Below, piece after piece: positions 7,882 through 48,385 of a stretch of 59,674 nt of DNA. The notes beneath the pieces were generated by a model. The model saw only the letters and a program-made list of their open reading frames with translations, searched no databases and was not told the origin of the DNA. Every line of letters starts with the position of its first letter. The stretch's first letter is position 1. The translations under genes were made by a program, and so were the position numbers. This DNA comes from Candidatus Brocadia sp. (GTDB lineage: Bacteria; Planctomycetota; Brocadiia; Brocadiales; Brocadiaceae): assembly GCA_021646415.1 (NCBI GenBank), contig SOEU01000019.1, forward strand, positions 1-59,674, read 5' to 3'.

Positions 7882-10698
7882 TTATTGAAGTGCGGTAACA
7901 CACCGGGCACATATGGTAGGATGTTCCTTGACGGTTCCCACGCTCTCTCTCAGGTTCCAGCACCTTTCACATTTTTTGTGTTGCGATACATTGCATTCTA
8001 TCCAAAGATTTTCGGTTAATTCCCCCTTCACCGCTTCGGATGTTATACTCTTATCCAAATTTACCTCAGACACAAGAAATATCATAGGAAGGTCTTTTTC
8101 GTAGCTTTTAAGGAACCGCCAGAGTTCTTCGTTTTCTGTATAAAGATTGACGGATGCCTCCAATGAGTTACCTATCAACTTGGCGGCACGCATCTTTTCC
8201 AGTTCCCTTGCCACATCGGTTCTTATATTGATTAACTTTTCCCATCTTTCATTGAGAGAGTTGTCTGTCCAGACAGGGACTTCTTTTGGAAATGTCGTCA
8301 AATGAACGCTGGAGACGTCCTCATCCTTATGGATAATTGCTGACCATACTTCTTCCGCCGTGTGAACAATAATCGGTGCGGACAATTTAACAAGGTTTAA
8401 CAGGATGTAATACATCACCGTCTGTGCGGCACGTCGCTCCTTTGAATTTTTGGGAAAGGTATAGGACCGGTCCTTCAAAATATCCAGATAAAAGGCACTC
8501 ATTTCCACCGAACAAAAGTTGTAGATATTATGAAAAACACGGTGAAATTGTAACGACTCATAGGCCGACGTAATGTTCTTAATTAATTCTTGTGTCTTAT
8601 GCAATGCCCATCGGTCTATTTCCAGTAATCCTTCATAGGCTATGGTATTTACCTTTGGGTCGAAATCGTAAAGGTTGCTGAGCAGATATCTGAACGTGTT
8701 GCGAACCCGTCTGTAGGCATCCGAACACCTGATGATTAAATTACGAGACACACTCATATCATTTTGATAGTCTAAAGAGGAAGTCCATAACCTGAGCACG
8801 TCAGCACCAAATTCCTTTAAAGCGTCTTCTACAGATATGAAATTTCCACGGGATTTGGACATCTTTTTTCCATGTTCATCAACAACAAACCCGTGTGTCA
8901 AGACAGATTTGAAAGGTGCTTTATCCCACGCACCAACCGATGGAAGTAATGAAAGCTGAAACCATCCACGGTGTTGATCCGTCCCTTCCAGATACAGATC
9001 GGCTGGATACGATAACTCAGTGCGCTTGTGTAAAACGGCATGGTGGCTTGAGCCAGACTCGAACCAGACATCGAAGATATCCATTTCTTTTTCAAACCGG
9101 TCACCCCCACATTGAGTGCATTTCGTATCAGGCGGTAAAAAATAAGATACCTCCTTGTAAAACCAAATATCGGCCCCTTCCTTCTCAAATTTGTCTCTCA
9201 CATAATCTATGGTCTTTGTATTTATATGTGCTTGACGGCAATGTACACAATGAAAGGCAGGAATGGGTACACCCCATGAACGCTGTCGGGAGATGCACCA
9301 ATCAGGGCGCTCCGAAATCATCTTTGCCATACGATTCTCGCCCCAGGAAGGTATCCATTTCGTCCGCTTTATCTCATCCAATACCTTTTGACGCAGGTTG
9401 TTATAATCAAGACTGACAAACCACTGCTCCGTTGCCCTGAAGATAACCGGATCATCACATCGCCAACAATGGGGATAGGAGTGGGCAATGTCTTTTTTAT
9501 CAAGTAACGCCCCTAACATCTCCAGTTTTTTAATTATCGCGTCGTTTCCTTCTTTTAAGATATTGAGCCCGGCAAATTCACCTGCCTCTTTTGTAAAATT
9601 ACCCTTTTCATCAACAGGACTTAACAGGGGTAAATGATATTTAATGCCGGTAAGATAATCTTCCTGGCCATGTCCTGGCGCTGTGTGAACACAGCCCGTC
9701 CCATCCGATAAGGTCACATAGTCTGCCAATACTACAGAACCTATTCTGTCTATAAAAGGATGCCGGTATTTTATACCCTCCAATAAACGCCCCTGTATCT
9801 TGCCGAGGTATTCGTAATCCTTGATTCCTAACGCAGATATGATTAATTCAGCCCTCTTATCAGCAAGGACAGTAATTTCTTTCTTTTGCGTTTTAGGATT
9901 CAAATAACGAATGGCAACATATTCATGTTCTGGGTGGATGGCGACTGCAACGTTTGCCGGAAGTGTCCAGGGGGTAGTTGTCCATATCATGATATACGAA
10001 TTATTGCTGTCTGCACCTTTGAATAAATTGTCGATACCGTCAGTGAGTTTGAAGTTTACATAAATGGATGGACTGGGAGTTTCTTCCCTATAGTCAAGTT
10101 CTGCTTCGGCAAGGGTCGTTTGTCCAAGTTCATTGGGACACCAGTGGACAGGTTTTTTGCTTCGATACACATATCCTTTTTCAACCAGTTTTCCAAATAC
10201 CTCGATGATGCCTGCTTCATATTTAGGATCAAAGGTCAGGTATGGATGTTCCCAGTTTCCCAGTATCCCAAGCGCCTTAAATTGAGTTCTTTGAAGTTTT
10301 ACAAATTTTTCCGCATATTTTTTGCATTTTTTCCGAATTTCTGGTTTTGTTAAATTTTTTCTTTCTTCACCAACTTCCTGCATTACGCGGTGTTCAATCG
10401 GCAAACCGTGACAATCCCAGCCGGGAACATAAGGCGCATCATAACCCTTCATTGTATGAAATCGTACAATGAAGTCTTTTAATATTTTATTCAAACCGGT
10501 ACCAATGTGTAGTTCACCAGTCGGGTAGGGGGGGCCATCGTGCAGGATATATTTTTCTCTCCCGGCACGTGTCTTGCGAACTTGCTCGTAGAGTTGATCC
10601 TTTTCCCACGTTTTTTGGATTTCCGGCTCTTTTCTGAGCAAATCCGCCTTCATGGGAAATTTGGTGGTGGGTAGATTGAGGGTGTTTTTATAATCCAT
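7882..10698 (-). CDS. ileS: isoleucyl-tRNA synthetase
   Basis: This class I aminoacyl-tRNA synthetase charges tRNA-Ile. The 938-aa protein has the HIGH-type motif PYPTGELHIGTGLNK, the editing (CP1) domain with TTTPWTLPANVAVAIHP, the second signature GKKMSKSRGN, the anticodon-binding helical domain, and a C-terminal zinc ribbon (CERCW...CARC). All elements of the bacterial-type enzyme are present and the length is normal. The ATG at 10698 is preceded by AAGGA at a slightly long spacing. The DUF167 gene lies just upstream on the same strand. Confidence 0.97.
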   Translation of the reverse strand: MDYKNTLNLPTTKFPMKADLLRKEPEIQKTWEKDQLYEQVRKTRAGREKYILHDGPPYPTGELHIGTGLNKILKDFIVRFHTMKGYDAPYVPGWDCHGLPIEHRVMQEVGEERKNLTKPEIRKKCKKYAEKFVKLQRTQFKALGILGNWEHPYLTFDPKYEAGIIEVFGKLVEKGYVYRSKKPVHWCPNELGQTTLAEAELDYREETPSPSIYVNFKLTDGIDNLFKGADSNNSYIMIWTTTPWTLPANVAVAIHPEHEYVAIRYLNPKTQKKEITVLADKRAELIISALGIKDYEYLGKIQGRLLEGIKYRHPFIDRIGSVVLADYVTLSDGTGCVHTAPGHGQEDYLTGIKYHLPLLSPVDEKGNFTKEAGEFAGLNILKEGNDAIIKKLEMLGALLDKKDIAHSYPHCWRCDDPVIFRATEQWFVSLDYNNLRQKVLDEIKRTKWIPSWGENRMAKMISERPDWCISRQRSWGVPIPAFHCVHCRQAHINTKTIDYVRDKFEKEGADIWFYKEVSYFLPPDTKCTQCGGDRFEKEMDIFDVWFESGSSHHAVLHKRTELSYPADLYLEGTDQHRGWFQLSLLPSVGAWDKAPFKSVLTHGFVVDEHGKKMSKSRGNFISVEDALKEFGADVLRLWTSSLDYQNDMSVSRNLIIRCSDAYRRVRNTFRYLLSNLYDFDPKVNTIAYEGLLEIDRWALHKTQELIKNITSAYESLQFHRVFHNIYNFCSVEMSAFYLDILKDRSYTFPKNSKERRAAQTVMYYILLNLVKLSAPIIVHTAEEVWSAIIHKDEDVSSVHLTTFPKEVPVWTDNSLNERWEKLINIRTDVARELEKMRAAKLIGNSLEASVNLYTENEELWRFLKSYEKDLPMIFLVSEVNLDKSITSEAVKGELTENLWIECNVSQHKKCERCWNLRESVGTVKEHPTICARCVTALQ

Positions 10699-42907: not shown

Positions 42908-43327
42908 CTATGCAGAAAAACAGGAGAATGAGGGAGGCGGACGGATGGTAAAATTATGGATGGGTAAAGATGGAATGGCGGGGTTGGAATAATATGCAAG
43001 ACTGATGTAGATACACTCGCATTGTGCATCTACTGATAGAAATCGTGCTGAGGTTGAAGGTGTCTTCAGCCATTGACAGATTTGACATGTTTCGGAGTCG
43101 TGCTGATAACCGTTTTCTGAAATCTCAATGTGTGAAGTATGAGAGGTGTCAATAGTCTTCCGTGCGAGAGGATGTTGCTTGTGGTTACAATGCTGGGTAT
43201 TTAAAAAACTATTGTGAAAACCTCCGAGTGTTAAACACAACAGTAAATAGGGAAGAAGAGTCGAAACAAACAGGATATTTGTTCGATTTTTGTTTCTGGT
43301 AAAATACTTCGTTAATGGCATATACAT
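42908..43327 (-). CDS. small His/Cys-containing exported protein, DUF2946-like
   Basis: The protein (139 aa) has an N-terminal hydrophobic segment (ILFVSTLLPYLLLCLTLGG), then a His-rich part (NTQHCNHKQHPLARK, HTSHIEISENGYQHDSETCQIC) and a tail ending TIRPPPSFSCFSA. The CQICQWL and closing PPPS motifs recall DUF2946, which occurs in metal-responsive loci. It lies 135 bases upstream of the porin gene on the same strand. A role as a periplasmic metal buffer is inferred from composition and context only. Confidence 0.6.
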   Translation of the reverse strand: MYMPLTKYFTRNKNRTNILFVSTLLPYLLLCLTLGGFHNSFLNTQHCNHKQHPLARKTIDTSHTSHIEISENGYQHDSETCQICQWLKTPSTSARFLSVDAQCECIYISLAYYSNPAIPSLPIHNFTIRPPPSFSCFSA

Positions 43328-45708: not shown

Positions 45709-45759
45709 CTACTGGATGGGAATTATAGATTCCAATCGTAGCGATTGGTCGGGTATAAA

Positions 45760-45806
45760 GGTGGCGTGCAGATAACTACAAGATCTGCATGCACCTTTTT
45801 ATATTT
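45760..45806 (+). terminator. Rho-independent terminator of the cytochrome gene
   Basis: A 13-bp stem (GGTGGCGTGCAGAT with a one-base bulge and one G-U pair, against ATCTGCATGCACC) has a 9-base loop and is followed by TTTTTATATTTT, 52 bases after the cytochrome stop codon. Confidence 0.78.
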
Positions 45807-45851
45807 TGATATATTGCAGGATTTTATTTTTAGGCTGGAAAGGAGATGTTC

Positions 45852-46172
45852 ATGTGTAAGAGATTTATTATAACCCTCGGTATTTTACTTGCCATGGCCT
45901 TTACAGGTGGAATTATTGGAGAGTTGTCTCATACCATGGTTTTTGCCCATGGGCATGGCCGTCACCACGGGTGTGATCATTGTGGGCATTATGTATGTCC
46001 GGGTGATTGCGGGAAATGTGAAGAGTGTATAGCAAGGCGAAAGGCTGCAAAGGAAGCGGCCAAGAAGTGTGAAAAATGCGGACATGAAGAGTGCCCCGGC
46101 AATTGCAACAGGTGCGTTGATTGCTTACAGGAGAGAATAAATAAATTGGAAAAAGAGTTAGAAAAGAAGTAA
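45852..46172 (+). CDS. small exported protein with duplicated Cys/His metal-binding motif
   Basis: This 106-aa protein has a signal peptide (FIITLGILLAMAFTGGIIGE), a short His-rich stretch (HGHGRHHG), then two copies of the same Cys pattern: CDHCGHYVCPGDCGKCEEC and CEKCGHEECPGNCNRCVDC, each C-x2-C-G-H-x2-C-P-G-x-C-x2-C-x2-C, with a basic helical linker between and a C-terminal helix. Twelve Cys in total. I know no named family. Metal chelation (zinc, copper or similar) outside the cytoplasm is the likely job. The ATG at 45852 has AAAGGAG at 6 bases. Its leader DNA matches that of the next gene. Confidence 0.75.
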   Translation: MCKRFIITLGILLAMAFTGGIIGELSHTMVFAHGHGRHHGCDHCGHYVCPGDCGKCEECIARRKAAKEAAKKCEKCGHEECPGNCNRCVDCLQERINKLEKELEKK

Positions 46173-46485
46173 GAGTTCAGTTTACAGCAGAGGCCGCTAA
46201 GGTCGCCGAGATTATGAAAGAAGGAATTAAGATTAACGGAAAAAATTAAACATTTCATGCTAAATGGGCAGGGTGGACTTCGTCATGATGGTTTGACAAG
46301 CTCACCATGCACGGCACCCCACCCTGAGCCTGTCGAAGGGTCAGTCGAACGGTTAAGACGCTGTCTTTTGCGCCGAATACACCTTCATATTACCCATTAC
46401 CCACCCTCAATCCCCTCCTGGGAGGGGACTCAGGGGTGGGTTCCTGTCGCTTAAGCCACCCTACCCAACTGGAAAGGAGATATTT
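46173..46485. repeat. intergenic repeat block, copy 1
   Basis: No gene. From about 46262 the block runs GGGTGGACTTCGTC..., CAGTCGAACGGTTAAG, ACACCTTCATATTACC, an AATCCCCTCCTGGGAGGGGACT hairpin and ends GCTTAAGCCACCCTAC at 46466. A close direct copy, shorter at its left end, lies at 48240-48385. Confidence 0.65.
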
Positions 46486-47181
46486 ATGCGTAGGAAATTT
46501 ATTATAACCTTTGGTATTTTACTTGCCACTGCCTTTACCTGTGGAACAGTCGGCATGTCCTACCGGACAGTTTTTGCCAATGAGCATAAGCATGAGCATG
46601 AGCATCACGGTGTCCATGCAGGTGAAAAATACAGTGTAAAAGGTGTCTTCGTCGAGGGATGTAACTGCAATATACCATGTGCCTGTGAATTATTCGGATT
46701 GGAGACGGGCTGTCATACGGTAGCTGTACTGTCTTTGAGTGATAGTAGTTATGACGGTGTAGATCTGTCAGGCGCAAAGATCGCCTACGCAACAAAACCT
46801 GGTGATTGGGTCATTATTTATATCGATGCAAAAGATGATCAACAGAAACAAGCGGCCATCAGGTTTACCAAGGGTATTTTCGGCAATTACGGCAAAGTCG
46901 AGAAGGCCGATAGCGCTAAAATTGAATTTTCTGGAAAAGATGGCAATTACACCGTTAAGGTCGATGATGGCAAGATTATGCAACTGACAACTGAACCGGT
47001 TCTCGGTGGGGACAACAAAACCCCTGTAATGCATACAAATACCAAAAGTAAATTGACCCCGGTTTTTATGCAGGGCAGGGTTATCTCTGGTAGTTTTAAC
47101 GACGGTGAACGGAAATTTGAACTGAAGGGTAGTAACTCTTACTTTAACGCAAATATGCATTGCGAAGGTAGTTCCGAATAA
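46486..47181 (+). CDS. exported DUF1326-family protein
   Basis: This 231-aa protein has a signal peptide (FIITFGILLATAFTCGTVG), a His-rich stretch (EHKHEHEHHGVHAG) and the DUF1326 core with GVFVEGCNCNIPCACELFG, GDWVIIYIDAKD, QAAIRFTKGIFG and a C-terminal IMQLTTEPVLGG part. DUF1326 is of unknown function; the four closely spaced Cys and the His stretch suggest metal or redox chemistry. Its ribosome-binding site and signal-peptide DNA resemble those of the preceding gene, so the two share a duplicated leader. Confidence 0.85.
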   Translation: MRRKFIITFGILLATAFTCGTVGMSYRTVFANEHKHEHEHHGVHAGEKYSVKGVFVEGCNCNIPCACELFGLETGCHTVAVLSLSDSSYDGVDLSGAKIAYATKPGDWVIIYIDAKDDQQKQAAIRFTKGIFGNYGKVEKADSAKIEFSGKDGNYTVKVDDGKIMQLTTEPVLGGDNKTPVMHTNTKSKLTPVFMQGRVISGSFNDGERKFELKGSNSYFNANMHCEGSSE

Positions 47182-48239: not shown

Positions 48240-48385
48240 CGGCATGGACTTAGTCGTGAGCGCTCAGTCGAACAATTAAGGCGCTGTCTTTTTCGTCGAA
48301 TCCACCTTCATAATACCCACCCCTCAATCCCCTCCTGGGAGGGGACTCAGGGGTGGGTTCTCTGTCGCTTAATCCACCCTTATAT
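48240..48385. repeat. intergenic repeat block, copy 2
   Basis: Direct copy of the block at 46262-46466: shared CAGTCGAAC, GGCGCTGTCTTTT, CACCTTCATA, the CCCCTCCTGGGAGGGG hairpin and the CGCTTAATCCACCC end. Confidence 0.65.

Follow-up and report, generated by a model that had tools for sequence, protein, structure and literature searches.

The 59,674-nucleotide stretch of Candidatus Brocadia DNA analysed here (the window) contains, at 45852-46172, an ORF for a predicted exported protein of 106 residues, in which a module of six cysteines and one histidine, C-x2-C-x-H-x2-C-x3-C-x2-C-x2-C, occurs twice in tandem. We lean towards the view that this double-module protein is a Sec-exported, metallothionein-like metal-binding protein that buffers, stores or hands over zinc or copper outside the cytoplasm; the sequence, its conservation, an N-terminus like that of a signal peptide, purifying selection and recurring metal-gene neighbours are observed, while metal binding, the identity of the metal, the compartment and the buffering role are inferred. 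The near-complete genome of 3.8 Mb to which the window belongs, as contig 19, is that of a Candidatus Brocadia-like anammox bacterium and has its close matches in Candidatus Brocadia and Candidatus Kuenenia hertensis.

Gene structure and the two modules

The ORF as listed begins at ATG 45846, which abuts the motif AAGGAG (45840-45845). ATG 45852, with this motif six bases ahead of it, was preferred on account of the motif and of all orthologues, which bears out the ORF and start codon of the original prediction. The parts of the gene are as follows.

45839-45845, + strand: ribosome-binding site AAAGGAG before ATG 45852 (sequence; kept in Brocadia orthologues)
45852-46172, + strand: gene for the putatively exported Cys-rich double-module protein, 106 aa plus stop
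45852-45947, + strand: putative Sec-type signal peptide M..VFA, without twin arginine (sequence and alignment A1)
45948-45971, + strand: His-rich mature N-terminus HGHGRHHG (alignment A3)
45972-46028, + strand: module 1, CDHCGHYVCPGDCGKCEEC (alignment, DNA pattern search)
46029-46067, + strand: basic linker IARRKAAKEAAKK, predicted helix (AlphaFold2 secondary structure, low confidence)
46068-46124, + strand: module 2, CEKCGHEECPGNCNRCVDC (alignment, DNA pattern search)
46125-46169, + strand: charged C-terminal helix LQERINKLEKELEKK (alignment, low-confidence AlphaFold2 models)

Cleavage of the signal peptide is predicted after Ala32, counted from ATG 45852 (Ala34 of P0001), and Ala at position -1 is invariant in the 12 sequences of alignment A1. 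Export had been proposed originally and agrees with this N-terminus, which resembles a Sec-type signal peptide; a His-rich segment does precede the modules, the linker between them is basic, and the predicted motif C-x2-C-G-H-x2-C-P-G-x-C-x2-C-x2-C holds literally in both copies. The mature part of 74 residues contains 12 Cys, 7 His and a single aromatic residue (Tyr), with no Trp or Phe. Many cysteines and few aromatic residues are typical of metallothioneins, and the composition of the protein, which is small, Cys-rich and nearly free of aromatics, favours metal binding.

Searched as a DNA pattern, the Cys/His spacing occurred at two places in the window, namely the two modules, and in none of 100 dinucleotide-shuffled sequences; chance would not be expected to yield either copy of the motif. 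In a gap-free alignment the modules share 12 identical residues of 31 (six of the 12 being residues other than Cys), with a score (z = 8.7) that none of 5000 shuffles reached. Since they align end to end far above shuffled sequences, they very probably arose by internal duplication.

Conservation and distribution

Intact orthologues were found in 12 cases including the window, spread over six genera that all belong to one order. Neither the 12 Cys nor the module-1 His ever changes across these orthologues (alignment A1), while the module-2 His is replaced by Tyr in one of them. The mature protein opens with His-x-His in all 12, His1 and His3 being invariant, and the C-terminal helix sequence ERIKKLEKE is conserved (alignment A1). 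Among Brocadia-type genomes, the mature part showed dN of 0.04-0.07 and dS of 0.45-0.84 (dN/dS about 0.06-0.11), which supports the coding status of the ORF, whereas the signal peptide drifts (dN 0.17-0.33). Therefore, selection protects the ligand-rich mature part. This strong purifying selection, together with the invariant 12 Cys, module-1 His and His-x-His, argues for metal binding.

The occurrence of the gene is patchy: even within the same genus and family, several genomes lack it. One more genus (G043, L053) encodes a variant protein with just one such module, and a single-contig genome (G021) carries a decayed orthologue broken by a frameshift (L037, about 9816-9990). Outside the order, a module profile searched against 392 genomes of the phylum gave just two marginal partial matches (E = 0.009). 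A scan for close relatives in 84,980 species genomes, which distant relatives would escape, returned four anammox-group loci and one false positive (L025), the zinc site of a valyl-tRNA synthetase. Plasmids, phages and viral contigs gave no match. The double-module protein thus appears confined to anammox bacteria and their close relatives, where alone we found it.

Single-module proteins also exist. A relative from a different family of the same order, KCDKCGHDKCPGDCSKCPDC, is encoded by two tandem genes, and at about 155-572 of L040 (G033) two exported single-module peptides with the same Cys pattern stand in tandem. With KCDKCGHDKCPGDCSKCPDC as the query, short exported peptides of the form CDKCGH...DCKCECHHKH were retrieved from the window's own genome. 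Short exported CxxCGH peptides lie in G000 at 10382-10555 of contig 42 (L028) and 396200-396376 of contig 2 (L029). Peptides of this CxxCGH..CxCxCH kind form a multi-copy family in the order; in the class, 36 of 75 genomes gave matches, some of the weaker ones in the signal peptide only. Like the double-module protein they carry CxxCGH after a signal peptide and end in a Cys cluster; in contrast to it they have one module and the C-terminal spacing C-x-C-x-C-H. The short and long forms may be related, through a weak link.

Proposed metal binding, known families and alternative readings

As the original prediction had named no known family, so the databases assign the protein to none. No family was hit at E up to 1 in Pfam or NCBIfam, the best E-values against PDB sequences were 0.2 (single sequence) and 0.31 (profile), and PHROGs yielded nothing but an endolysin match (E = 0.19). 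When 39 relatives were searched with PF02069, the model of bacterial metallothioneins, nothing exceeded its cut-off and nothing matched at the double-module locus. A resemblance to the MLL CXXC finger (CGxCxxC) was rejected as homology because of its E-value of 0.54 and its different spacing. The original prediction had named a zinc-finger or ferredoxin family of known role as grounds for giving it up; no significant match to one was found in Pfam, NCBIfam or PDB. No relevant paper was found in the open-access literature on anammox metallothioneins or Cys-rich proteins. Structure prediction, also suggested originally, was performed twice with AlphaFold2 and gave low-confidence models (pLDDT 63-64, pTM 0.28-0.32), of which the first had no Foldseek match in the PDB. 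These weak models, and the absence of a homologue of known function, count against the metal-binding reading.

If the protein binds metal, removal of the signal peptide would leave about 74 residues beginning with His-Gly-His, which is predicted to bind Cu(II), Ni(II) or Zn(II). Cu(II) and Ni(II) are known to bind at an N-terminal X-X-His, the ATCUN site, and by its sequence the mature N-terminus would be a site of this type. Each module of six Cys and one His would fold round soft metal ions, Zn(II) or Cu(I), so that the two modules form small metal-thiolate knuckles with a helix after each, and the protein could serve metal buffering, storage or hand-over in a periplasm-like space or the anammoxosome. 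The low-confidence models put a helix straight after each module, an arrangement compatible with the knuckle-plus-helix zinc fold of SmtA (PMC10612145), although a fold cannot be proved from models of this quality.

A further point against the preferred reading is the strictly fixed spacing, which suits a folded zinc-finger-like domain no less than it would a loose metal sponge. We consider it unlikely that this is a small exported zinc-finger-like protein, in which zinc would be structural rather than cargo and the basic or charged helices would bind a partner protein or other molecule. Its almost absolutely fixed Cys/His positions, the CxxCG knuckles with the last CxxC starting a predicted helix, as in treble-clef fingers, and the conserved ERIKKLEKE helix are what such a protein would show; however, seven potential ligands per module exceed the need of one structural zinc, the conserved His-x-His N-terminus would be an additional metal site, and the likeness to PRT1, ZZZ3 and MLL CXXC fingers is no better than E = 0.2.

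The C-x3-C-x2-C-x2-C spacing within each module also allows CPGDCGKCEEC to be read as a reversed ferredoxin-like motif of an iron-sulfur protein. Clusters preassembled in the cytoplasm need Tat export. The signal lacks a twin arginine, so a cluster of this kind would not be exported, and no ferredoxin family was matched in Pfam, NCBIfam or the PDB; we regard an iron-sulfur protein as very unlikely.

The metal-binding reading, which we prefer, can be compared with known systems. The original description as metallothionein-like is borne out by the ligand-rich composition. The protein lies outside the family PF02069 and probably works like a metallothionein, judging from composition and inference. 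In SmtA, a zinc-finger fold of the GATA type goes together with a cluster of several metals (PMC10612145). Like SmtA/BmtA (PF02069), the double-module protein is small and Cys-rich, with His and few aromatics, but it differs in its Cys spacing, tandem modules, signal peptide and want of a PF02069 match. Csp1, an exported Cys-rich metal store, is a Cys-lined four-helix bundle exported by Tat (PMC7558416). The present protein, likewise Cys-rich and apparently exported, has instead a Sec-type signal (no twin-arginine motif in any of the 12 signal peptides), Cys modules of 19 residues and, in the low-confidence models, only two short helices in its mature part. ZnuA, ZinT and ZepA, zinc proteins that are exported, likewise have a His-rich mature N-terminus (PMC10957091), a point in favour of metal binding; export and a zinc-gene neighbourhood are further shared features, whereas ZepA has its His sites on a larger fold (PMC10957091) and here the Cys modules dominate. 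Being exported, modular and restricted to one order, the protein would be a new form of metallothionein-like protein.

It is conceivable, though doubtful, that a family of exported Cys/His metal-binding peptides peculiar to the anammox lineage, the double-module form included, provides these bacteria with a zinc/copper buffer or metallochaperone system dedicated to the space outside the cytoplasm; this would be a class of metallothionein directed to a compartment and not described before. To our knowledge, the bacterial metallothioneins described fall into few sequence families and act in the cytosol. Anammox cells rely on very many metal enzymes within a membrane-bound organelle, and an exported modular metallothionein, if true, would show how they control metals outside the cytoplasm. 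The double-module protein, small, conserved and readily expressible, lends itself to a direct test of this question.

Neighbouring genes and a copied 5' end

Upstream of the double-module gene the window has a cytochrome c' gene, and between the two is a strong hairpin with a T run (about 45759-45800) that appears terminator-like. Downstream are DUF1326, MBL-rhodanese, TauE-like and SQR-like genes. The opposite strand carries an SQR-like gene and Znu zinc-uptake genes (ZnuA and ABC subunits), with a CDF cation-efflux gene farther away. Znu genes are also near the double-module gene in four Brocadia-type genomes (G001, G003, G004 and G005), and a NosL-like gene is nearby in three others (G010, G018 and G025). 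In certain genera MBL-rhodanese and SQR genes are repeatedly found close by, but in G013 and G033 no MBL-rhodanese, SQR, Znu, CDF, NosL or cytochrome c' gene is in the neighbourhood. Cytochrome c' is a neighbour in some Brocadia-type genomes only, and beside the decayed copy in G021. A specific link to the sulfur and cytochrome genes, as proposed originally, is not supported; such neighbours are not general.

There is no fixed operon, and metal handling is the neighbour type that recurs most. The recurring Znu, CDF or NosL genes point to metal handling and, with the many shorter exported peptides of the order, favour the metal-binding reading, which is weakened by the variation of neighbourhoods between genera and by G013 and G033, where no metal gene is near. 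Cysteine is a suitable ligand for Cu(I), Zn(II) and Cd(II), and the neighbours, which in many genomes include zinc genes (Znu, CDF) or a copper gene (NosL), suggest zinc or copper as the bound metal.

The cysteines of an exported protein could form disulfides instead, which also counts against metal binding. A disulfide-rich or thiol redox protein working with the sulfide/persulfide genes nearby (SQR, MBL-rhodanese) would account for the several CxxC pairs and for the presence of these genes in several genomes. However, its disulfides would not need the conserved His residues, G013 and G033 have no sulfur genes near the double-module gene, and Pfam gave no thioredoxin-family match. We judge such a role quite improbable.

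Rfam gave no match in the surrounding 4 kb, and a promoter scan found no convincing site and identified no metal-responsive promoter. On the minus strand at 42908-43327, upstream of the Znu genes, is a small conserved protein with CxxC and several His, which presumably resembles the DUF2946 type; Pfam gave no significant match for it.

Part of the double-module gene is duplicated nearby.

46469-46617, + strand: partial copy of the gene's 5' end, comprising ribosome-binding site, signal peptide and His tract and joined to the DUF1326 gene at 46486-47181

The 78 nt from 45835, spanning the ribosome-binding site and signal peptide, recur at 46469-46546 with 86% identity, and weaker similarity continues through the His tract to 46617. 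Some other genomes of the order have a DUF1326 gene with another signal peptide. The copied signal of G001 is interrupted by an in-frame TAG stop. The DUF1326 region is flanked by two copies of an intergenic repeat (46341-46462 and 48264-48380), the pieces of which are 80 to 100% identical and which could represent a small mobile or REP-like element.
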